From: Chitinophaga sp. 180180018-3
Lineage (GTDB): Bacteria; Bacteroidota; Bacteroidia; Chitinophagales; Chitinophagaceae
NCBI RefSeq assembly: GCF_037893185.1
Contig: NZ_CP140772.1
Span: 1,922,001-1,986,000 of the forward strand
Length of the DNA stretch: 64,000 bases
Direction: 5' to 3'
Part shown: positions 2,354 through 14,207 of the stretch, piece by piece
Position numbering within the stretch: the stretch's first letter is position 1
How the letters are laid out: each line of letters opens with the position of its first letter
Position numbers and translations under genes: made by a program
Notes under the pieces: model-generated
The model's database searches: none
Told to the model about the DNA's origin: nothing
Seen by the model: only the letters and a program-made list of their open reading frames with translations

Positions 2354-3331
2354 ATGAAAGCAGCAATATTGGAAGAATTCGGTTCTGTTGAAAATTTTAA
2401 AATTGCAGAAGTACCAACACCCAAACCTCAATTTAAAGAAGTTTTAGTAAAAGTTCTTGCTTCTTCTGTTAATCCTTTAGACTACCAGGTTCGTCGTGGA
2501 GATTATAAAAACGAATTAACCCTTCCTGTTATCACTGGACATGATGTCTCTGGTGTGATTGTAGAAATCGGTCCTGGTGTTGAAAATTTCAAAGTTGGTG
2601 ATGAAGTTTATTATTCTCCGGAGATTTTTAACGGACAGGGAAGTTATGCACAATATCACTGTGCTAACGAATCAATAATAGGTTTAAAACCTGAAAATAT
2701 TAGCCATCTTGAAGCTGCAACACTTCCTTTAGCTGCAGGTACCGCGTGGGAGATGCTTGTTACCAGAACACAACTTAAAATCAATCAAACCATTTTAATT
2801 CACGGAGGCGCTGGTGGTGTTGGGATACCAACTATTCAAATTGCTAAAGCTATGGGAGCAACTGTATTTACTACAGCAAGAAAAGTTCACCATCAATTTC
2901 TTCTTGATTTAGGAGCTGATTATGTTATTGATTACGAAAATCAAGACTACATCGAGGCTATTAATCAATTAACTAATAATAAAGGAGTTGATGTAATTAT
3001 TGATACCATAGGCGGTAGCACTCTTTCTGATAGCGGAAAGATCCTTAGTCAATCAGGGCAGGTAGCTACACTTGTTGACATTGAGAAACCTCAAAACCTT
3101 ATTGAGGCCTGGGGGAAAAATGCAACTTATCATTTTGTTTTTACAAGACAAAATAGAAATAAACTAGACGAGCTAAGCAAGTTAGTAAAGAGCCAAAAAC
3201 TAAAACCTGTTTTAGTTAAAGTCTTCTCTTTAGCAGAAATAGGCAAAGCACATAACTTACTTGAGACAAAAGCCGGCGATGAAAATTTCTATGGTAAAAT
3301 TGCAATAGAAGTTAATCATGAAACGCTTTAA
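2354..3331 (+). CDS. Zinc-independent MDR oxidoreductase (NADPH:quinone reductase type)
   Basis: 325 residues. An N-terminal GroES-like domain contains SSVNPLDYQVRRG and GHDVSGVI, followed by a Rossmann domain with HGGAGGVG at 150-157. The structural and catalytic Cys residues of zinc alcohol dehydrogenases are absent, which places it with the quinone reductase / enone reductase branch of the medium-chain family. It would use NAD(P)H to reduce quinones or activated C=C bonds. It is 18 bases downstream of the hydrolase and almost certainly co-transcribed. Codon use is AT-rich like its two neighbours. Confidence 0.9.
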   Translation: MKAAILEEFGSVENFKIAEVPTPKPQFKEVLVKVLASSVNPLDYQVRRGDYKNELTLPVITGHDVSGVIVEIGPGVENFKVGDEVYYSPEIFNGQGSYAQYHCANESIIGLKPENISHLEAATLPLAAGTAWEMLVTRTQLKINQTILIHGGAGGVGIPTIQIAKAMGATVFTTARKVHHQFLLDLGADYVIDYENQDYIEAINQLTNNKGVDVIIDTIGGSTLSDSGKILSQSGQVATLVDIEKPQNLIEAWGKNATYHFVFTRQNRNKLDELSKLVKSQKLKPVLVKVFSLAEIGKAHNLLETKAGDENFYGKIAIEVNHETL

Positions 3332-3406
3332 ATTCCAAGGAAAGGTAACTTATATTATTTAAACTGATCGTTTTGCGTTTATCATTCTGCTATTATAGAT
3401 TTCTGT

Positions 3407-4105
3407 TCAGCAGATCATCAACAACCTGTTCTGCCCGGGGTTTTCCTTTGGTGCACGGTGAAGACAAGGAAGAACCTTACTTTCAGGATGGTCGACCGCC
3501 AACCTCCATAGATTACCAATACCTAAGCTTATCGGACGTGCATCAGGTTTAGCTTCATAGTGCAGATCAAAGAAATGTTCACTTAAGAATGATTCAAAAC
3601 CTTCATCTGGTCCATGATATAGTTTTCTAAGCTGATCACGTATTGCTGGGATAAGCACTTTCTTTTGACCTTGTGAATTTGGCAATATTTCACTGGACTC
3701 GCCATAGTAGGTACATAAAAAGGTGTCGGTTGGTACGGGAGAGCGATCTACATGAAAGGAATAAACATCGGTTGGAAAAAACGGGTAAGTATCATCCCGA
3801 TCATAGTGGGTGATCACATTAAGGACGGGCGATGCGCCATGAGCTTTCAATATCTTCAGGTCATTTAAAAGAATTTCACAGGCAAGTTGCCCTTGTTCAC
3901 TCAACTGAAGTGCACGAAGTTCCTCTTGTTCAATTTCTGTTATATTTCCGCTTAGCGCTATTTTTTTAACAATCTCAGAAAAATCACCTATTAGTTTACG
4001 GGTCCAGCAAATCGCATTAATTTCTCCGTTAAATGGCGCAGAAGCAAGGTCCTGGAAATTCGTGACACGGCGAATATGTTTCTCTGTATGAGATAAATCT
4101 ATCAT
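3407..4105 (-). CDS. DUF1826-like protein
   Basis: 232 residues from the ATG at 4105; an upstream TTG at 4138 is possible but less likely. The conserved core is in the second half: a strand with FHVDRSPV, then T-D-T-F-L-C-T-Y-Y-G, and near the end C-L-H-R-A-P followed by G-Q-x-R-L-L. This is the pattern I associate with DUF1826 proteins, whose function is unknown. His and Asp residues in HVD and the later H-R are suggestive of a metal site, but this is inference. It stands alone between a convergent oxidoreductase and the HTH/DUF2975 pair. Confidence 0.6.
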   Translation of the reverse strand: MIDLSHTEKHIRRVTNFQDLASAPFNGEINAICWTRKLIGDFSEIVKKIALSGNITEIEQEELRALQLSEQGQLACEILLNDLKILKAHGASPVLNVITHYDRDDTYPFFPTDVYSFHVDRSPVPTDTFLCTYYGESSEILPNSQGQKKVLIPAIRDQLRKLYHGPDEGFESFLSEHFFDLHYEAKPDARPISLGIGNLWRLAVDHPESKVLPCLHRAPKENPGQNRLLMIC

Positions 4106-4203
4106 TATAGTTGATATAAATATAAAATCATTCGACAACGAAGTACGGAAATAATAGCCTCAGTTCCCGTTTGGCAGCACCATATATTTTTTTAGAGACG
4201 ATG

Positions 4204-4413
4204 CTATTCTTCCTTCCTATACTCAAGGATATCTCCGGGCTGGCAATCCAGTACTTTACAAATCGACTCCAGGGTATCGAACCTTACCCCTTTGGCCTTC
4301 CCATTCTTTAAAATTGATAAATTGACATTTGTAAGTCCGACTTGACGGGAAAGCTCATTTAATGAAATCTTTCGCTTCGCCATTATTACGTCCAGATTGA
4401 TAATTATTGCCAT
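4204..4413 (-). CDS. Small Cro/XRE-type HTH regulator (YozG-like), partner of DUF2975
   Basis: 69 residues made almost entirely of one HTH: M-A-I-I-I-N-L-D-V then K-R-K-I-S-L-N-E-L-S-R-Q-V-G, the recognition helix N-L-S-I-L-K-N-G-K-A-K, and C-Q-P-G-D-I-L-E-Y at the end. The start at 4413 keeps the conserved N-terminal strand; the ATG at 4383 would remove it. It begins two bases after the stop of the DUF2975 gene, so the two are translationally coupled. This two-gene pair is common in Bacteroidota and Firmicutes. It probably represses its own promoter (palindrome at 4978-5017). Confidence 0.88.
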   Translation of the reverse strand: MAIIINLDVIMAKRKISLNELSRQVGLTNVNLSILKNGKAKGVRFDTLESICKVLDCQPGDILEYRKEE

Positions 4414-4415
4414 AC

Positions 4416-4952
4416 CTATATGAATAGTTCGTTCTCTTTTTTAAGCATCACAGCTTTGCCTATAAATTGTCGTACAGCCCAAAGAATCGTGGCTAAAAGA
4501 AGATACATTGTCTGTGGTTCTTTAAATACCAGCAACCGGGTAAAAGACCGAAACAATAAATTGGATATGCTCCATAGGGAAGTCCACTGCTCTAAATGCA
4601 TTTCATAAAAATTATCGCAAATAGTTTGTATTATTCCCAGCAAGGCCAGACAGAAGCAAGAAATGATCACCCAATCAAATATGCGAAGACTATCCTTTCC
4701 AAAAAAACCAGATTTGCGATATTTCCTGAAAATTTTTAAAAGTAATATCCCCACCGATAAAAATATTACGTTGCTGATAATCTTCCCTACGAACCAAATG
4801 AACGGCATCTTTTCCGGAGGAACAATATAGGAATGCTGACCTGACAGGAAAGGAATGAACCATCTGATATAGTATATCAGCGCTTCTGTTGAGAAGAAAA
4901 TGGCGCCATATATCAAGCCGATCAGAAGACGGGAAGATCTTGTTGTATTCAT
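4416..4952 (-). CDS. DUF2975 integral membrane protein
   Basis: 178 residues with four predicted membrane helices: about 9-35, 52-75, 92-112 and 145-168, separated by short charged loops. The spacing and the F-R-K-Y-x-x-x-G-x-F loop after helix 2 fit DUF2975. It is always found with a small YozG-type HTH protein, as here. The role is unknown; co-occurrence suggests a membrane component that senses or modulates the HTH partner. Transcription probably starts from the AT-rich leader that carries the 14-bp inverted repeat. Confidence 0.85.
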   Translation of the reverse strand: MNTTRSSRLLIGLIYGAIFFSTEALIYYIRWFIPFLSGQHSYIVPPEKMPFIWFVGKIISNVIFLSVGILLLKIFRKYRKSGFFGKDSLRIFDWVIISCFCLALLGIIQTICDNFYEMHLEQWTSLWSISNLLFRSFTRLLVFKEPQTMYLLLATILWAVRQFIGKAVMLKKENELFI

Positions 4953-4977
4953 GTTTTTTTTTGCTAAAATACAATTA

Positions 4978-5017
4978 TTTAAAATAAAACAAAAAATATT
5001 TATTGTTTTATTTTAAA
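4978..5017. promoter_or_regulatory. 14-bp perfect inverted repeat upstream of DUF2975/HTH operon
   Basis: Arms 4978-4991 (TTTAAAATAAAACA) and 5004-5017 are perfectly complementary with a 12-base AT-only spacer. The inner edge is 26 bases upstream of the DUF2975 start codon, a position suited to an operator for the operon's own HTH protein. A transcription terminator is less likely because no gene on either strand ends here. Confidence 0.5.
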
Positions 5018-5202
5018 AATTTAAAGCTTTGAGCGAAGGTTGCATTACCGGAAGATGAAATAAAATCAAAACATAGCGCTATCCTATGGCCCGTCGATAT
5101 ATTGACTTCCAATCATCTCAACTTACGATGGCAACTACGGTTTTCCGTAAATTGGTTATTCCCAAAAACTTCATTTTGCAGGTCTATATAAATCAAAAAA
5201 TT

Positions 5203-5487
5203 ATGGCCAGATATCAAATTGCCTGCATTAACAAGCGTGGTAGCCACTACGGCGATCATGAGAGGATTTCCCACATAGGTGGACTAAACAACAACGGAAC
5301 GCGCTGGAAATTAACTGAAGAGGAAGCAATCCAATTAATTGAACATGGTAAACATCAATTTTTCGTTAGTGTCAAAGGCCAAAGTGTAGAGGTTATCATT
5401 GCCTTGCATGGCAACCGAAAATATCTCAAAACAACAGCTGATGGATACAGTCCTAATAACCTGCTGAATCTTCCGGAGTGTCAATGA
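5203..5487 (+). CDS. DUF3892 domain protein
   Basis: 94 residues from the ATG at 5203. An in-frame ATG at 5086 exists, but the 39 extra residues do not resemble the family. The frame shows the DUF3892 pattern: Y-x-I-A-C-I-N-K at the start, H-E-R-I-x-x-I-G-G at about residues 18-26, then W-K-L-T-E-E-E-A-I-x-L-I-E and a strand ending F-F-V-S. A C-terminal tail carries N-R-K-Y-L-K-T-x-A-D-G. Members are small cytoplasmic proteins of unknown function. It is monocistronic here. Confidence 0.75.
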   Translation: MARYQIACINKRGSHYGDHERISHIGGLNNNGTRWKLTEEEAIQLIEHGKHQFFVSVKGQSVEVIIALHGNRKYLKTTADGYSPNNLLNLPECQ

Positions 5488-5572
5488 AACTTAAATTTCT
5501 CCAATGGAACTCCCGGCAACAGCCAGGAGTTCCATCTGTTTATGCCAACCTTTGAAAGCCAGGCACAGTGCC

Positions 5573-5983
5573 TCAATCGAGTCTTTCAAATCTTTCCTTC
5601 GCTGCTGAAGTTGTTGGTGTAAAAAAGTTGACAAGGTTACCATCCGGATCCCTGAATAGCAGCGACCGGTTGCCCCAGGGCATAGTAGTTGGTTGTTGTA
5701 TAACAGCTTTATCCAGGAAGGCAGCCAGCACCTCATAACTTTTGTCAACATCATCAACCTTGAACTCAATGATAATTGAACGGTTAGAGGCCGCTTCTGC
5801 CACTTCGTTTCCACCAAATAATTCCAGTGTTCTTGTACTTCCAATAGCAAGAGATGCAAATGCGGTGCGCAGTTCAGCAAATTCATCAGTATACCATGTC
5901 ATGGGCATTCCGGTAATATGCTCATAAAACTGAACGAGGCGCTTAATCTCAGCAGTGATAATCCTGGTCGAAGAAAAATTCAT
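5573..5983 (-). CDS. VOC-superfamily (glyoxalase-like) protein
   Basis: 136 residues from the ATG at 5983; an upstream in-frame ATG at 6079 adds a non-conserved hydrophobic stretch. Two beta-alpha-beta-beta-beta modules are visible: T-R-I-I-T-A-E-I-K-R-L-V-Q-F-Y-E-x-I-T-G and E-F-K-V-D-D-V-D-K-S-Y, ending in L-L-F-R-D-P-D-G-N-L-V-N-F-F. The D-P-D-G-N turn and Glu/Phe-rich last strand are typical of the family. Some members detoxify methylglyoxal or bind antibiotics; nothing here fixes the ligand. Confidence 0.85.
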   Translation of the reverse strand: MNFSSTRIITAEIKRLVQFYEHITGMPMTWYTDEFAELRTAFASLAIGSTRTLELFGGNEVAEAASNRSIIIEFKVDDVDKSYEVLAAFLDKAVIQQPTTMPWGNRSLLFRDPDGNLVNFFTPTTSAAKERFERLD

Positions 5984-7830: not shown

Positions 7831-7838
7831 TATCTTTG
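7831..7838 (+). promoter_or_regulatory. Candidate -7 element for the HxlR gene
   Basis: TATCTTTG matches the TAnnTTTG box exactly and lies only five bases before the ATG at 7844. Transcription would begin at or next to that ATG, implying either a leaderless mRNA or use of the next ATG at 7865. Confidence 0.45.
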
Positions 7839-7843
7839 TGTTT

Positions 7844-8221
7844 ATGAAAGATAGCAGAAATGAGATGTGTCAGGGTAAGGAGGAATTAGACGCTTCTCTT
7901 AAAAACGTTCTCGACGCTTTGTCTGTTCTGAATGGAAAATGGAAGCTGGCTTTGATCCTTTCCATTATGCAGTCATCAAAGCGTTTCAATGAAATTCAGC
8001 ATGAGATTACCGGTATATCTTCCAAGGTACTAGCTAAAGAACTCAAAGATTTGGAGCTGAATGATTTTATTAAGAGAAATGTATATGCCACCGCTCCTCC
8101 GAATATTATCTATGAAGCAACTGACTATTGCCGAACCCTGAAGAAAGTTGTTGATGAATTGAGTAGTTGGGGAGAACAACATCGGGAAAAAGTTAAGCAG
8201 GGTATGCGGAAGCGATCCTGA
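7844..8221 (+). CDS. HxlR-family redox-type transcriptional regulator
   Basis: 125 residues from 7844 (118 if it starts at 7865). Winged HTH: L-S-V-L-N-G-K-W-K-L-A-L-I-L-S, then K-R-F-N-E-I-Q-H-E-I-T-G-I-S-S-K-V-L-A-K-E-L-K-D-L-E and a wing ending Y-E-A-T-D-Y-C-R-T-L. N-G-K-W-K is the HxlR signature. A Cys near the N-terminus (M-C-Q-G) matches the position of the redox-active Cys in HypR/YodB-type members, so it may sense quinones or disulfide stress and repress azoR. The sensing role is inference. Start choice is uncertain because the -7 box almost touches the first ATG. Confidence 0.87.
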   Translation: MKDSRNEMCQGKEELDASLKNVLDALSVLNGKWKLALILSIMQSSKRFNEIQHEITGISSKVLAKELKDLELNDFIKRNVYATAPPNIIYEATDYCRTLKKVVDELSSWGEQHREKVKQGMRKRS

Positions 8222-8315
8222 GTTGGTAGCTGCCTCTATCTAATGCCGCCATAGGAGTATCAGTTTTGACGAAAGATCCGTAACTTCATATCTCATCCTA
8301 AAACCCTGTTACATC

Positions 8316-9020
8316 ATGGCCCCTCAACAAAAAGTGAATTACGGTGTCGACGCTCCTAACGTGATCAGAAATCTCCTGGTTATCGGCGTGATTCTCTTCG
8401 CGATACCATTTTTCTTTCCCTATATCTATTTCAGCTGGATGATCTTTCCTGGTATCATCTTTATACTGGAAGCGGTGTTGATGCTCGTATATTCATTATA
8501 TGGTAAATTTGTGCACCGGGATCGTATGCTGAACAAGATTGGTTGGAAAGGCGATGAACAGGTACTGGACGTAGGCACCGGCAAAGGTTTGCTGATGATC
8601 GGCGCTGCAAAAAGGTTGACTACAGGGAAATCTACCGGCATCGACATCTGGAATGCGGAAGACCTTACCGGCAATAATCAGCAGAACGCATTAATGAACG
8701 CAACTGTCGAAGGTGTTGCTAACAGGATTGAAATTAAGAATGAGAATGTTATGAAGATGGACTTTGCCGACAATTCTTTCGATGTGATTCTCTCCAATCT
8801 TTGTCTGCATAATATCTACAACAAGGAAGGCCGAATTGCCGCCTGTAAAGAGATATGCCGGGTGCTGAAACCTGGTGGCATAGGCGTAATCTCTGATTTC
8901 AGACATGGTAAAGAATATAAACATAATTTTGACGCATTGGGTCTGCAAACAACCGCTTACACACCCAATTACTTCAGCACCTTTCCTCCATTGAGGATAT
9001 TGATGATTAAAAAACCGTAA
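8316..9020 (+). CDS. Membrane-anchored SAM-dependent methyltransferase
   Basis: 234 residues. Two membrane helices at about 17-35 and 41-62 precede a class I methyltransferase domain. Motif I is V-L-D-V-G-T-G-K-G (83-91), then the acidic ligand in G-I-D-I-W-N, and D-V-I-L-S-N-L-C-L-H-N with R-V-L-K-P-G-G further on. The substrate is unknown; the membrane anchor hints at a lipid or quinone-like molecule. The gene converges on the HTH/LamG-like gene with only 13 bases between stops. Confidence 0.85.
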   Translation: MAPQQKVNYGVDAPNVIRNLLVIGVILFAIPFFFPYIYFSWMIFPGIIFILEAVLMLVYSLYGKFVHRDRMLNKIGWKGDEQVLDVGTGKGLLMIGAAKRLTTGKSTGIDIWNAEDLTGNNQQNALMNATVEGVANRIEIKNENVMKMDFADNSFDVILSNLCLHNIYNKEGRIAACKEICRVLKPGGIGVISDFRHGKEYKHNFDALGLQTTAYTPNYFSTFPPLRILMIKKP

Positions 9021-9033
9021 TCAATGATTACTT

Positions 9034-10281
9034 TCAAAATACATCAAATACAGATCTACCGGTGGTGCCTAAACGAATATTTTTTACAGCACCCGCACCG
9101 CGAAAAGCAAACTCCAATCCAACTATATTAACTGCTGCTGCCGGTGCGGGGCATTGGTACGCGAATTTGTCATTGATATAAAAGCGGATACTATTGCTAT
9201 CATTTTTGCAGGATACCTTTACCCAATTGCTGAAATCAACACCGAACGCAGAAAGGTCAGTTGTTTTACCAGACGCGATATGATTAACAGCGTATAGCGC
9301 AAGCTCCGATACACAACCCTTTGCCGACAGAGGGATCACAATAGGTGCATCATCCGTTAATAATACAATGTCGCTGAACTGGCAGGCGGCCGCACCTTTA
9401 TTGTATTCATGTTTCAACGTAGCACTAAAGGAAAAATGATTGACAGGAACAGGATCAAAATTGCCAACATTGTAATAGCGTAAAATTGGCGGCACTGTTT
9501 CCATCTGTGGAACGAGCCGTTGTATTTCGGCTACGGATACACGTAATGCGTCGGGTTGAACAAAGCTGGCACTGTCCAGGTAAACGGGCACCGGTTTGTT
9601 TTTTATCAGTCCCAGCCATCCTTTTGTCGAAATCATTAACGGATGTGCTTTTACCGTCTGCTTACCAATAATCAGGAGAGGATGATAAAAAGCCGGTTCA
9701 TAGTAAATGGACGTATGTGTATGACCGTTCTTTTCAACCCTGACCCGCGAGTTCGGGTCCCAATCCTGTTGAATAAATATCGAATCTGTTGTGGCCGCTC
9801 TGGCATCATAAGTAAAAACAACTGTGTTAGGCAGCTCATGCGTTAGCTGTTTATGGCTGAAACTATAGTCGCCAGGTTTGGGCAGTCCCTGCAATAGATT
9901 TTCTTTCCTGAACACCAACAGTGTCAATATACCTGCTACGATAATAGTTAGCGTGAGCAGCAGAACATTCCTGATGGGGGAGCGCCGTTTTCCGGGTATT
10001 GGCACGGGCTCGCTATCATCGGTGTTTAACTTCAAAAAAGCACGCCAGCTTTCAACACCTGCAAAGTTTGCAAGTGCATCCAATGTTGTAGTACTTGGCA
10101 GATGATTGTGTGAAAGCCTCCCCCAGACCCTGCGTAATGTAGCGGTACTTAGGGTCACCCCGGTTTTATCGGTAATCAGATCTCTTAAGTTTTCAAAATC
10201 TCTGATTTGCCAACCATTGCCTTCTCCCCAATCCAGTTTTTTTTCGATGAGGTGTACTAGTTTTTTTATCTCAGATAGCAT
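9034..10281 (-). CDS. Putative membrane-tethered HTH regulator with a LamG-like sensor domain
   Basis: 415 residues in three parts. Residues 1-85 are helical and HTH-like (R-D-F-E-N-L-R-D-L-I-T-D-K-T-G, then S-T-A-T-L-R-R-V-W-G-R and T-T-L-D-A-L-A-N-F-A-G-V-E-S-W). One membrane helix follows at about 104-124, preceded by K-R-R-S-P-I-R, so the N-terminus should be cytoplasmic. The large C-terminal part ends in a beta-sandwich resembling LamG: F-S-A-T-L-K at about 275, then W-V-K-V-S-C-K and R-F-Y-I-N-D-K. This would be a one-component sensor spanning the inner membrane. It is divergent from a lipoprotein / serine hydrolase pair, with a tandem repeat 13 bases from its ATG. DNA binding and LamG fold are inferred. 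Confidence 0.7.
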   Translation of the reverse strand: MLSEIKKLVHLIEKKLDWGEGNGWQIRDFENLRDLITDKTGVTLSTATLRRVWGRLSHNHLPSTTTLDALANFAGVESWRAFLKLNTDDSEPVPIPGKRRSPIRNVLLLTLTIIVAGILTLLVFRKENLLQGLPKPGDYSFSHKQLTHELPNTVVFTYDARAATTDSIFIQQDWDPNSRVRVEKNGHTHTSIYYEPAFYHPLLIIGKQTVKAHPLMISTKGWLGLIKNKPVPVYLDSASFVQPDALRVSVAEIQRLVPQMETVPPILRYYNVGNFDPVPVNHFSFSATLKHEYNKGAAACQFSDIVLLTDDAPIVIPLSAKGCVSELALYAVNHIASGKTTDLSAFGVDFSNWVKVSCKNDSNSIRFYINDKFAYQCPAPAAAVNIVGLEFAFRGAGAVKNIRLGTTGRSVFDVF

Positions 10282-10293
10282 TGATTATCAGCG

Positions 10294-10313
10294 TGACAAA
10301 ACTTGACAAAACT
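10294..10313. repeat. Perfect tandem 10-bp repeat, candidate operator
   Basis: TGACAAAACT occurs twice in direct succession (10294-10303 and 10304-10313). Ten bases is one helical turn, so two protein subunits could bind on the same DNA face. It lies 13 bases upstream of the HTH/LamG-like gene and 39 bases before the -7 box of the divergent operon, a good place to control both. Confidence 0.55.
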
Positions 10314-10351
10314 TGTTTCCTACTTGAACAATCTGCAAAAATGTCAACGTC

Positions 10352-10359
10352 TATTTTTG
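10352..10359 (+). promoter_or_regulatory. Candidate -7 element for the TolB-like lipoprotein gene
   Basis: TATTTTTG, a perfect TAnnTTTG box 40 bases before the ATG at 10399. The nearest TTG upstream is 25 bases away, longer than usual, which would fit a promoter that needs an activator. Confidence 0.45.
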
Positions 10360-10398
10360 CTTTATGCCTTCACTAAAATACATAAAATACTAAACTCA

Positions 10399-11313
10399 AT
10401 GAGCAAGCTTTTACCGGTTATAGTTATCGTGATACTGCTGTTAAACGCATGTACAAATGAACCGAAATCATTTTGGGAGAGCCCGAACGCTTATCTTGGT
10501 CAGATACCGCCCAACGATACGCCAAAGCCATTTGCGCCCGGGCTGCTGGCCGATACCGGCGGTATAGCCCTGGACCGTGTAGCATTTTCTCCGGATGGCC
10601 GGGAATTTTATTACTGTCATAACACATCCTGGTTCAGTTCCACTAACCTGAAGATTAAAGCATTTAAGTTTACCGGAGATCGGTGGCAGGGGCCTGTTTT
10701 AATAAACGAAACATTCAATTCGCCTACTTTCTCAATGGATGGTAATACACTTTATTTTCCGGGAGGTGATAGTACCGGCGCTGTAGTTTGGCAGTCGAAC
10801 AGATCGGATAGCGGGTGGACAAAGCCTTCGGCCTATCTCAAAGCATCCTATTCCCTATATGACTTTATGCCCACCAAAAGTGGTAATATGTATATAGGTA
10901 CAAACGGGAGATGGGGAAGCGCAAAAGATTATTCCTGTTTTGATATCGCCAGGCTAAATGTAAACGGAAAAGATACCGTTCTTCAAAACCTGGGTACTCC
11001 CCTGAACACAACCGGAGCATTCGACGGCGATTTCTTTGTAGCGCCGGACGAATCCTATATCATTATCAGCACAAAAGAAACCAAAGATTTTGAATGTGAG
11101 CTTTATATCAGTTTCAGAACAGCCGACGGTAAATGGAATACCCCCAAGAGCCTGGGCCCCCTGATTAATAATGGGCTGGCGCATAGATGGGGTCAGTATG
11201 TTACACCCGATAAGAAATACTTGTTTTACACACAGGCAACGAGCGAAAAAGATTGTAAAATATATTGGGTCCGTTTTGATAAATTGCTGGAGAAGTTGAG
11301 AGCGCAAAATTAA
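10399..11313 (+). CDS. TolB/WD40-like (PD40) lipoprotein
   Basis: 304 residues from the ATG at 10399; in-frame codons upstream would put 32 odd residues before the signal peptide. A lipobox (L-L-N-A-C, Cys18) predicts a lipoprotein. The body is made of beta-propeller-like repeats with R-V-A-F-S-P-D-G-R-E-F-Y-Y, P-T-F-S-M-D-G-N-T-L-Y-F-P, V-A-P-D-E-S-Y-I-I and V-T-P-D-K-K-Y-L-F-Y, each a PD40-like blade strand. Such proteins bind ligands or partners at the cell surface. It is the first gene of a two-gene unit with the serine hydrolase, divergent from the putative membrane regulator. Confidence 0.8.
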   Translation: MSKLLPVIVIVILLLNACTNEPKSFWESPNAYLGQIPPNDTPKPFAPGLLADTGGIALDRVAFSPDGREFYYCHNTSWFSSTNLKIKAFKFTGDRWQGPVLINETFNSPTFSMDGNTLYFPGGDSTGAVVWQSNRSDSGWTKPSAYLKASYSLYDFMPTKSGNMYIGTNGRWGSAKDYSCFDIARLNVNGKDTVLQNLGTPLNTTGAFDGDFFVAPDESYIIISTKETKDFECELYISFRTADGKWNTPKSLGPLINNGLAHRWGQYVTPDKKYLFYTQATSEKDCKIYWVRFDKLLEKLRAQN

Positions 11314-11400
11314 CTTTCGACTTTCAATCTCACGCTATCTACCTGAGACAGATCTATTACTTTAAAGCGCACAATCCTTTTGCTGGTTAAAGTCAAACAA

Positions 11401-12447
11401 ATGAAGAGAATAATACTGATTGCGTTGTTGTTGCTCAGCATAAGCCTGCAAGCGCAGGACACCAGGGCTAAATTGACAAAACTGATCAATGATTTCAAAG
11501 CAAAATATCCTTCAAATGGACTCAGCATCGGCGTAATCCGCGATGACAGCATCTATTATTTTTCGGTCGGCAACACAGGAAATATTCCGATTACTGAACA
11601 CACTGTTTTTGAAATAGGCTCGCTTACGAAATCATTCACAGGGCTGTTGCTGGGCCTGGAAATTGAAAAGAAACATATTGATAAAAATAGCTTTATCGAC
11701 AGCTATTTACCGCAGGGAGTTCATTTGCGGCCGGGGATAAGGCGGAAGATTAAAATGACAGACTTAGGGTCTCATCAATCCGGGTTACCTAATTTCAATG
11801 ATGACCAGTATATCATGGCGCTGTTCAAAAAAGATCCTGAACAGCCTTTCAGAAGCGCCAGCAAGGCTTATTTGTTCCAGGTACTGGAGAAAACTGATAC
11901 TTTGGTGAATCATGGAACGTACGCTTATAATAATTATGCTGTTGCGTTACTTGGACAACTTTTGGCGATACGTTCTCACCAAACATATGCCGCGCTGCTG
12001 AAACACGCTGTTCTTGAGCCGATGCATCTGAAGAACACAACGTTAAATGACCCGGCCCAGGGAGCGTCGGTAGCCGGGCGTTTTGATGACAAAGGGGACG
12101 TTAAACCCGCGATGATCATCAATGCCATGACACCGGCAGGTGGTCTTCATTCAAACGCGATTGATATGATCAACTTCCTGAGAAAACAGTTATCCCCATC
12201 TAATGATCAGATGGGGAAGGCCATTAAAATGTCGCAGCAAACTTTTTATCGTGATAAGGAGTTGAGTGTAGGGTTGGGATGGGAGATGCAAAACGGAATG
12301 ATTGAAAAAACAGGAGATACATGGGGTAACTCCAGCATGCTGAGCTTTGATCCGGAGAAACATGTGGGTGTTGTTGTACTTTCGGATCATCGGGATGCTC
12401 AGCTGGTGCAGGATATTACTGTTGCTATTTGGAAGGAAATAAAATAA
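11401..12447 (+). CDS. Serine hydrolase of the class C beta-lactamase / PBP family
   Basis: 348 residues from the ATG at 11401. Signal peptide about 1-19 (ending LQAQ), so periplasmic. The SxxK motif is S74-L-T-K77 (E-I-G-S-L-T-K-S-F) and the YxN motif Y176-N-N178 (Y-A-Y-N-N-Y-A). A third basic motif is not obvious; H-R-D-A or H-V-G-V near the end may fill that place. The family includes beta-lactamases, D-peptidases and esterases, so no drug-resistance role is claimed. It follows the lipoprotein by 87 bases and is followed by a good terminator. Confidence 0.88.
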   Translation: MKRIILIALLLLSISLQAQDTRAKLTKLINDFKAKYPSNGLSIGVIRDDSIYYFSVGNTGNIPITEHTVFEIGSLTKSFTGLLLGLEIEKKHIDKNSFIDSYLPQGVHLRPGIRRKIKMTDLGSHQSGLPNFNDDQYIMALFKKDPEQPFRSASKAYLFQVLEKTDTLVNHGTYAYNNYAVALLGQLLAIRSHQTYAALLKHAVLEPMHLKNTTLNDPAQGASVAGRFDDKGDVKPAMIINAMTPAGGLHSNAIDMINFLRKQLSPSNDQMGKAIKMSQQTFYRDKELSVGLGWEMQNGMIEKTGDTWGNSSMLSFDPEKHVGVVVLSDHRDAQLVQDITVAIWKEIK

Positions 12448-12493
12448 CAGGATATGCAACAATACCTCAAATAAGGGTTTTCATAGGTGATGG

Positions 12494-12520
12494 AGGGAGT
12501 GCGTTTACACTCCCTGTTTT
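12494..12520 (+). terminator. Intrinsic terminator after the serine hydrolase gene
   Basis: AGGGAGTG (12494-12501), six-base loop, CACTCCCT (12508-12515), then GTTTT. Eight perfect pairs. Confidence 0.7.
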
Positions 12521-12563
12521 GTATTACCGGAATAGTCAGGTGTCATCAGTTAAGCATAGCAAC

Positions 12564-13931
12564 TTACTGGCCGCTGTCTAACTTTGCTTTCAGCACACTG
12601 GCAATGTTGGCAGGCACATTTGATAAAAGACGATAGCTGGTGGCTGCTTCAATATCATTAATAGTGGTTAAATAAGATTTCCAGTCGGAGCTTACACTAT
12701 TATCATTGGGTGTATTTACCGCTATCACCCGTGTGCTTGTGGTAATACGTGCCAGGTCATTATCTCCCTTCGGCAATACCACTATTACTTTCCATATATT
12801 ACTGGGTACGTTTACACGACCGTTATCAACATTACCGGCGCTGCCATTACTGCCACTGCCACCGGTACCATAGCTGCCCATTATAACATACGTTTCATTA
12901 CCCTCTCTGACGAGGCTGCGGGTATAATTTTCAAGATTGGCCCATACATGACGGTTGTTGTTCGGCGCCTGAGGTATCATATTGGTCATCAGGAATGTAG
13001 TGGAATTAGCGGTAGCGTCAGCAGTTCTGTCGCCGGAAGGGCAATTGTGTCCTCTGTCAAAACCACTGCCACGGTAGCTGGAATTCGACACCTGGTACCA
13101 TCCATCCGGCAGAGTAACATCCGCTCTGAAATCATTTGAACGGGAAATGTCACCAAGATCTGTATCCTGCAGATGCCAGCATACCCAGTTAGGTTCGCCT
13201 TTGTCGCGGCTGTAAGAAAGTTTAAAATAAACTTTATCCATCAGGTAGTTATTAATCAATACAATGGAAGGAGCTGCATCGGAGGGATTACCCAGCAATA
13301 TATTATCATTATCACCGGGAACGGGTCCACCGCCACCTCCGGTGGTGTCGCCATCAGCTGTTATTATAAACGTGTCGAAATTTATTCGATTGACGCCACC
13401 GTCCGTTTTCCTGATATCAAACCGCACAGTACCACTGGCAGTATAGGCAAAGGTTGCCACCTGTAATTCGGTGGAAGAAGAAGTGATGGTTTGCCCAATC
13501 CTGCTATAGGAGGCGCCTCTGTCGGCTGACGCCCATAATTCCCAGTTGCCACTATCGTCTGTACCATACACTGCATGCTTAACTGATATGGTTATTTTGC
13601 CGGTGGTATTCACGTCAAATTTCATACTGACTATACCATTGTTACGAACTCTTACGGATGTTGCTCCTTCTTTGCGGTCATTGTCCAGCGTGCCGAGTAG
13701 TGCATCAGAAAGGTTCCAGGTGCCACTGCCAAGCGCTACATCGCCTGCAGCATAAAAGCGTTTAGTACCCTGTTCAAAATCTTCAGACAAAAGCTGCTTT
13801 GCTGTGATGAGCACACCCATCTTTGCTGTTTTGGGTATCGGTTCGGGTGTCACTATATCTTTCTTGGTACAAGCGGAAAAAATTACTGAAACGATTGTAA
13901 CGTACAGTAGTACACTAGTGATTTTTTTCAT
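12564..13931 (-). CDS. Secreted lipoprotein DNA/RNA non-specific endonuclease (NUC1)
   Basis: 455 residues from the ATG at 13931. Lipobox I-F-S-A-C with Cys21. Residues 50-190 form a beta-sandwich module (L-S-E-D-F-E-Q-G, then W-E-L-W-A-S-A-D-R-G and F-D-T-F-I-I-T), like carbohydrate-binding or adhesion domains. A Gly-rich linker (about 194-207) leads to a NUC1 domain with D-R-G-H at 292-295, where His295 is the general base, and the metal-binding Asn region Q-A-P-N-N-N-R-H-V-W-A-N-L-E. It should degrade DNA and RNA outside the cell or at the surface for nutrients or defence. Monocistronic. Confidence 0.92.
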   Translation of the reverse strand: MKKITSVLLYVTIVSVIFSACTKKDIVTPEPIPKTAKMGVLITAKQLLSEDFEQGTKRFYAAGDVALGSGTWNLSDALLGTLDNDRKEGATSVRVRNNGIVSMKFDVNTTGKITISVKHAVYGTDDSGNWELWASADRGASYSRIGQTITSSSTELQVATFAYTASGTVRFDIRKTDGGVNRINFDTFIITADGDTTGGGGGPVPGDNDNILLGNPSDAAPSIVLINNYLMDKVYFKLSYSRDKGEPNWVCWHLQDTDLGDISRSNDFRADVTLPDGWYQVSNSSYRGSGFDRGHNCPSGDRTADATANSTTFLMTNMIPQAPNNNRHVWANLENYTRSLVREGNETYVIMGSYGTGGSGSNGSAGNVDNGRVNVPSNIWKVIVVLPKGDNDLARITTSTRVIAVNTPNDNSVSSDWKSYLTTINDIEAATSYRLLSNVPANIASVLKAKLDSGQ

Positions 13932-14207
13932 GACATTTGGGTTTTTGGTTAGATAGTTTGTTTTTAGATATTGATTATTTATTTTCAGAAGATGGGTTTC
14001 AACGTAGTTTATCCGGGGATGCAATAAAAAAGATATAGTCTTACGCTACACTAATAAAACGATGATAAACAGGAAACCTCCTACCGGGTAATAATTAAAT
14101 AATATTGGAAAAAAACTGTAGCTTATGATGAGTTTATCTATTCGCTGAAATCAATAATATAGTTGGGATACTTATAACTATTGTAACGAGATAGAAATAA
14201 CTACTTT

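Follow-up and report, generated by a model that had tools for sequence, protein, structure and literature searches.

A candidate membrane-anchored one-component regulator with a conserved predicted operator and a divergent exported-protein gene in Chitinophaga and its relatives

In Bacteroidota, exported and surface proteins are regulated from the membrane by hybrid two-component systems and by FecI/FecR, and in ToxR and CadC an N-terminal DNA-binding domain, one membrane helix and a periplasmic sensor are combined in a single protein with repeated sites upstream of the target promoter. Transmembrane transcription regulators (TTRs), which likewise carry an inner DNA-binding part, a membrane helix and an outer sensor in one chain, are described in the available text of a census as widespread and enriched in Bacteroidota, with hybrids accounting for about 72% in the genus Bacteroides, and the members of that census were found through Pfam DNA-binding models (PMC10269533). 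Here, we describe a gene pair of Chitinophaga sp. 180180018-3 found in a 64,000-nucleotide stretch of contig NZ_CP140772.1 (the window, by which we mean the whole stretch analyzed), in which a predicted membrane protein of 415 amino acids (aa) and a lipoprotein gene are transcribed divergently from a region containing a tandem 10-base-pair (bp) repeat. The divergent pairing, a predicted operator containing this repeat and a fixed spacing from the operator to the partner's -7 box are conserved across related loci, and the anatomy of the protein, as modeled, is that of a TTR. The protein is probably a transmembrane one-component regulator that binds the repeats and activates the divergent exported-protein operon, and the well-conserved unit of regulator, operator and target very likely represents a family that is new within a known kind of system. 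The features on which this reading draws are as follows, with + and - denoting the forward and reverse strands.

9034..10281, -, transmembrane regulator gene, 415 aa, with no Pfam match above cut-off and no NCBIfam match
10294..10316, +, predicted operator core TGACAAAACTTGACAAAACTTGT as read on the divergent strand, containing the tandem 10-bp repeat
10323..10328, +, promoter-proximal half-site CTTGAA, 11 bp further on and beside the -33 region, conserved on the other strand as TTCA
10352..10359, +, predicted sigma-A -7 box TATTTTTG of the divergent gene, 35 nucleotides (nt) from the operator core
10399..11313, +, divergent target gene, a PD40/TolB-like lipoprotein of 304 aa from the ATG at 10399

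A scan of named-species genomes yielded 310 stretches encoding a relative of the regulator, and the best 80 of these were pooled with 39 of 40 further stretches (L154, carrying a STAND-type gene, was excluded) and the window, giving 115 loci after duplicate removal. The first upstream neighbor of the regulator gene was divergent in 109 of the 115 unique loci, compared to a background of 28% (234 of 825) for the remaining genes of 100 aa or more in these loci, not counting the window. A home-made export-signal rule was positive for 86 of the 109 divergent partners versus 383 of 1071 other genes, and a secreted LamG-like family close to PF06439 was found within the divergent operon of 74 of the 115 loci. 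Additional partner families included beta-helix proteins, PD40 lipoproteins, aspartyl proteases with a PDZ domain and DUF2911 proteins; relatives of the window's own PD40 lipoprotein were present in 13 of the 80 related loci, one of them as a fragment at a contig end. In relatives from another class the pair was divergent in 5 of 5 cases and the partner LamG-like in 4 of 5. The genes downstream of the regulator differ from locus to locus.

The upstream regions of the 48 loci nearest to the window share a common element, TCAAGTTnnnTCAAGTTnnnTCA, on the regulator strand, often with a second TTCA 11 bp upstream of it, and the tandem TGACAAAACT of the window is the reverse complement of this element. 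Read in this way, the predicted operator consists of CTTG half-sites spaced 10-11 bp. When up to 3 mismatches in 17 positions were allowed within 400 nt upstream of the regulator, the core was detected in 68 of the 115 loci, compared to 2 of 3313 other 400-nt stretches from these loci (one of which is the displaced operator of L040) and none of 345 shuffles. As the core was defined from 48 loci that had already been read, the fair count is that for the other 67 loci, 27 of which contain it. The initial annotation had pointed to the tandem repeat and to the divergent lipoprotein gene and had asked for both to be sought in relatives; both are real, the gene order recurring as counted above and the repeat forming part of a conserved predicted operator, and its reading as a chance duplication was rejected. 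The window contains the 10-mer exactly two more times, at 11474 and 14975, each time as a single copy inside coding sequence.

The available text of two sources places the Bacteroidota sigma-A -7 box, TAnnTTTG, at -12 to -5 (PMC9723704; also PMC7366714). The distance from the operator to such a box was determined on the divergent strand for the 93 loci with an element of at most 5 mismatches and within 200 nt. A -7 box of the form TANNTTTG, matching in at least 5 of 6 positions, stood at exactly 35 nt in 61 loci and at 36 nt in a non-overlapping 16, amounting to 77 of 93 loci, or 63 of 78 without near-duplicates and 36 of the 51 loci not read beforehand. Perfect boxes (6/6) were found in 37 of the 93 loci, with 26 at 35 nt, 11 at 36 nt and none at the remaining 118 of 120 offsets. 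In the window, given a predicted start near 10364, the half-sites would lie at about -36 to -70, with the nearest abutting the -33 region.

The regulator itself is predicted to be built from the following parts.

10021..10278, -, residues 2-87, cytoplasmic five-helix domain, proposed to be an XRE-like helix-turn-helix (HTH) with the recognition helix at about 46-52
9892..9975, -, residues 103-130, membrane helix, by prediction
9577..9870, -, residues ~138-235, first outer beta domain
9055..9624, -, residues ~220-409, LamG/ConA-like domain, with C300 and C323 invariant in 58 rows

The predicted membrane helix lies between the N-terminal and outer domains, as in a TTR, and the outer C-terminal domain is a ConA-like beta sandwich; the 415-residue open reading frame, the membrane helix and the LamG-like outer domain of the initial annotation are all real. 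At Pfam E ≤ 1, the only match to the protein was DUF4088, below cut-off. Hybrid two-component systems and FecI/FecR resemble the regulator in their membrane-based control of exported proteins, and ToxR and CadC have a similar working plan. No HisKA, HATPase_c or receiver match was found in the window protein at Pfam E ≤ 1, nor was a FecR match, and no sigma factor was found among the five neighboring genes scanned (7838-13937). The OmpR-type winged helix of ToxR and CadC (Trans_reg_C, PF00486) was likewise absent from the window protein at Pfam E ≤ 1 and from its model. While the available text of PMC6733452 gives ToxR a winged helix, the regulator combines a strand-free bundle of five helices with a LamG-like sensor. 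The regulator is not a member of ToxR/CadC by domain, nor is it a hybrid two-component or FecR system. Unlike the TTRs of the census, as far as its available text describes them, it has no Pfam DNA-binding match, and the family was therefore probably left uncounted there (PMC10269533).

The five helices of the N-terminal domain are confident in the full-length structure model, in which no strand of at least 3 residues occurs ahead of residue 140, and their order resembles that of XRE/lambda-repressor-like HTH_3 domains, from which the regulator differs in lacking a Pfam HTH_3 match and in its longer helix 2. Profile comparison with 15 HTH_3 sequences gave a weak similarity (score 22.1 over only 17 columns), with scores of at most 14.2 for 60 column shuffles and 9.3 for the reversed profile, and the domain contains a segment resembling the 'PSxxTLxxLAxxxG' of HTH_3 proteins. 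One relative (P0079) carries the NCBI name 'helix-turn-helix domain-containing'. The 22 HTH_3 matches (E ≤ 0.001) in the window genome do not include the regulator gene, a PDB sequence search with the full-length protein gave a best E of 0.21, and the VIA-align matches listed for the full model, a list filled by the LamG domain, included no helical DNA-binding fold. An XRE-like HTH is a plausible reading of the modeled N-terminal fold, which is consistent with it and does not prove it. A related N-terminal domain is also found at the start of a STAND-type protein of ~860-910 aa (in the window genome, L005, G000:C1:7721782-7722066), where the NACHT and nSTAND3 matches are both below cut-off; the N-terminal domain of this protein was matched in 60 of 60 Chitinophaga genomes searched (E ≤ 1e-5), and identifying the domain would inform the STAND-type NTPase as well.

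From these observations we infer DNA binding by the regulator, activation rather than repression, autorepression and the kind of ligand. The N-terminal helical domain would stay in the cytoplasm and bind the in-phase CTTG half-sites, roughly a helical turn from one another, just upstream of the -33 region, and the C-terminal LamG-like domain would face the periplasm and sense a ligand, probably a saccharide, as its fold suggests, or the exported partner's product. Upon sensing, copies of the regulator bound on one face of the DNA would help sigma-A polymerase start the divergent operon. The 10-11 bp spacing would place the half-sites on one helix face, as expected for a row of identical domains, and the fixed distance to the -7 box together with the position upstream of -33 points to an activator contacting polymerase. 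Binding may also repress the regulator gene itself, as the core of the window lies only 13-35 nt ahead of its start codon. The outer sensor appears to have the same fold as the most frequent target, an exported LamG-like protein, and this hints at a loop in which the two recognize the same ligand or each other. Sequence homology between the two LamG domains is not claimed (profile E 0.0011, probability 20%, 61 columns). More tentatively, and as a wider reading that we would sooner doubt than assert, these proteins could form an unrecognized family of membrane-anchored activators in more than one Bacteroidota class, in which an undescribed DNA-binding domain on 3-4 in-phase half-sites replaces the -33 contact of sigma-A and is coupled to such a sensor-product loop.

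Less likely is a membrane-bound repressor that sits on the operator and impedes polymerase at the divergent promoter until ligand releases it. In many families divergent regulators act as repressors, and the promoter-proximal half-site abuts the -33 region, both of which speak for repression; the half-sites nevertheless lie outside the core promoter, on the upstream side of -33, and the fixed 35-36 nt to the -7 box would be typical of activators that touch polymerase.

A composite pattern of two CTTG, a fixed gap and a -7 box was scanned over 133 genomes (99 plus 34 chosen for holding the family). The scan gave 28 matches, 20 of them at family pairs. Among the 8 others, three resemble chance (L158, L159, L161) and five (L165, L164, L198, L203, L207) precede genes with export-signal-like starts, as judged by eye. 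Two of these five, L164 in Chitinophaga and L198 in Spirosoma, stand before LamG-like genes of the partner family that have no divergent family regulator. In the 8.13-Mb genome of the window, the pattern matches twice, in the window and at L156. This second site (L156/L165, G000:C1:4959948-4960005) has three CTTG/TTTG half-sites with exact 10-bp spacing and precedes a gene for an apparently exported protein with no Pfam match, the divergent neighbor of which is not a family regulator. At L207 (G407:C18:44220, Spirosoma), the composite promoter precedes a lipoprotein-like, apparently hydrolase-related gene whose divergent neighbor is also not a family regulator.

That the conserved predicted operator belongs to another regulator, with the membrane protein serving the exported partner by other means, such as surface assembly or a chaperone role, is improbable. 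It draws on the related domain at the head of the STAND-type NTPase, by which such a domain need not be a transcription factor. The operator, however, accompanies the gene pair across several genera, and it is missing from two loci in which the usual partner is missing (L052 and L027, with no core of ≤3 mismatches anywhere in the locus). The two unlinked partner-family genes at L164 and L198 bear the same promoter, and with downstream neighbors so variable no other conserved regulator is seen there. Very improbable indeed is a site that mainly autoregulates the regulator gene with the divergent promoter as a passenger, for although in many loci the core starts precisely 35 nt ahead of the regulator start codon, its distance from the regulator is 97-164 nt in two metagenome-assembled genomes (L036, L046) and five Mucilaginibacter loci. 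In a further four loci (L013, L020, L040 and L077, with 3, 2, 1 and 1 core mismatches), where an acetyltransferase gene (PF13302) is inserted between regulator and partner, the distance grows to 581-630 nt, yet the core stays at 35 nt from a -7 box of the partner in all four.

Several observations weigh against a repeat-binding activator of the divergent operon. Because the loci share ancestry, their counts do not amount to independent trials. In 20 of the 115 loci the best core, with 6-8 mismatches, is no better than the control stretches (4 of these are the inserted-gene loci, where the core is farther away), no clear core (5-7 mismatches) is seen in the five relatives from another class, and of the 93 loci with a core, 16 have no -7 box of 5/6 at 35-36 nt. 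Backward-pattern controls of the composite scan gave 18 matches versus the 8 sites off family pairs, so that a wider regulon is not shown by number; the telling point at L164 and L198 is the identity of the genes rather than the match count. Regarding topology, 21 of 114 homologues show an additional hydrophobic window beyond residue 160, and the charge rule fails in 28 of 114. Regarding the HTH, Pfam gave no HTH match for the window protein's N-terminal domain, and the best HTH-type match over 58 members, among the 25 families shown, was HTH_32 in 1 member (E 0.11). Residues 1-90 alone, in a low-confidence single-sequence fold (predicted local distance difference test, pLDDT, 56), gave no fold match at E ≤ 0.001. 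The best PDB sequence match of this domain, to rat RAP (E 0.031), was taken as chance. For an HTH fold of residues 1-87, the helix order and the weak XRE profile similarity are in favor, and the isolated domain gives no useful fold match.

A protein search returned at least 878 homologues at E ≤ 1e-3 among 7999 candidates scored, and the 119 other homologues listed share 46-67% identity over 97-100% of the query. Those named include Mucilaginibacter, Dyadobacter, Spirosoma and Chitinophaga proteins, mostly annotated as hypothetical and in some cases as 'PKD domain-containing'. A match at E ≤ 1e-95 was present in 38 of 60 Chitinophaga genomes, and a phylum-wide sample at E ≤ 1e-40 gave a match in 8 of 296 genomes, own genome counted and 5 of them from another class. 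The window genome has one full-length paralogue at 40% identity and one more distant. No publication on the regulator family was found in partial listings judged by title and the start of the abstract, most subscription papers being outside this scope. The family adds one more to the known routes that carry an outside signal to DNA in Bacteroidota, and a name could be given to hundreds of proteins now called 'hypothetical' or 'PKD domain-containing'. As is rare for an uncharacterized regulator, a predicted operator, its exact promoter-relative position and a conserved target are all in hand, making binding, activation and ligand directly testable.

Downstream of the lipoprotein gene, and possibly co-transcribed with it, lies one further gene of the divergent strand.

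11401..12447, +, beta-lactamase-family serine hydrolase, not conserved at this position

The initial annotation had counted this hydrolase as a partner, and this part of the module was rejected, as no hit was found at any of the 13 other lipoprotein loci within available flanks; among the 80, another 8 loci gave weak hits at 20-26% identity. The annotation's proposal of a one-component regulator acting on the divergent gene through the repeat is supported by gene order and repeat conservation, and fails in the hydrolase and in the supposed rarity of such a protein in this phylum, which was too strong a claim given the enrichment that the available census text reports, despite the share of hybrids in Bacteroides (PMC10269533). 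In four Mucilaginibacter loci (L073, L079, L083, L085), a beta-lactamase-family hydrolase about 25% identical to that of the window is second in the divergent operon, possibly a recurring theme. A DNA/RNA non-specific endonuclease gene (12564-13937, -, PF01223, E 2.3e-46) adjoins the module, and no relatives of it were found in the 80 related loci. In L012 and L024 (about 2881-5755), the LamG-like partner gene is present in three tandem copies in the divergent operon, and in L012 a PD40 lipoprotein gene precedes them.

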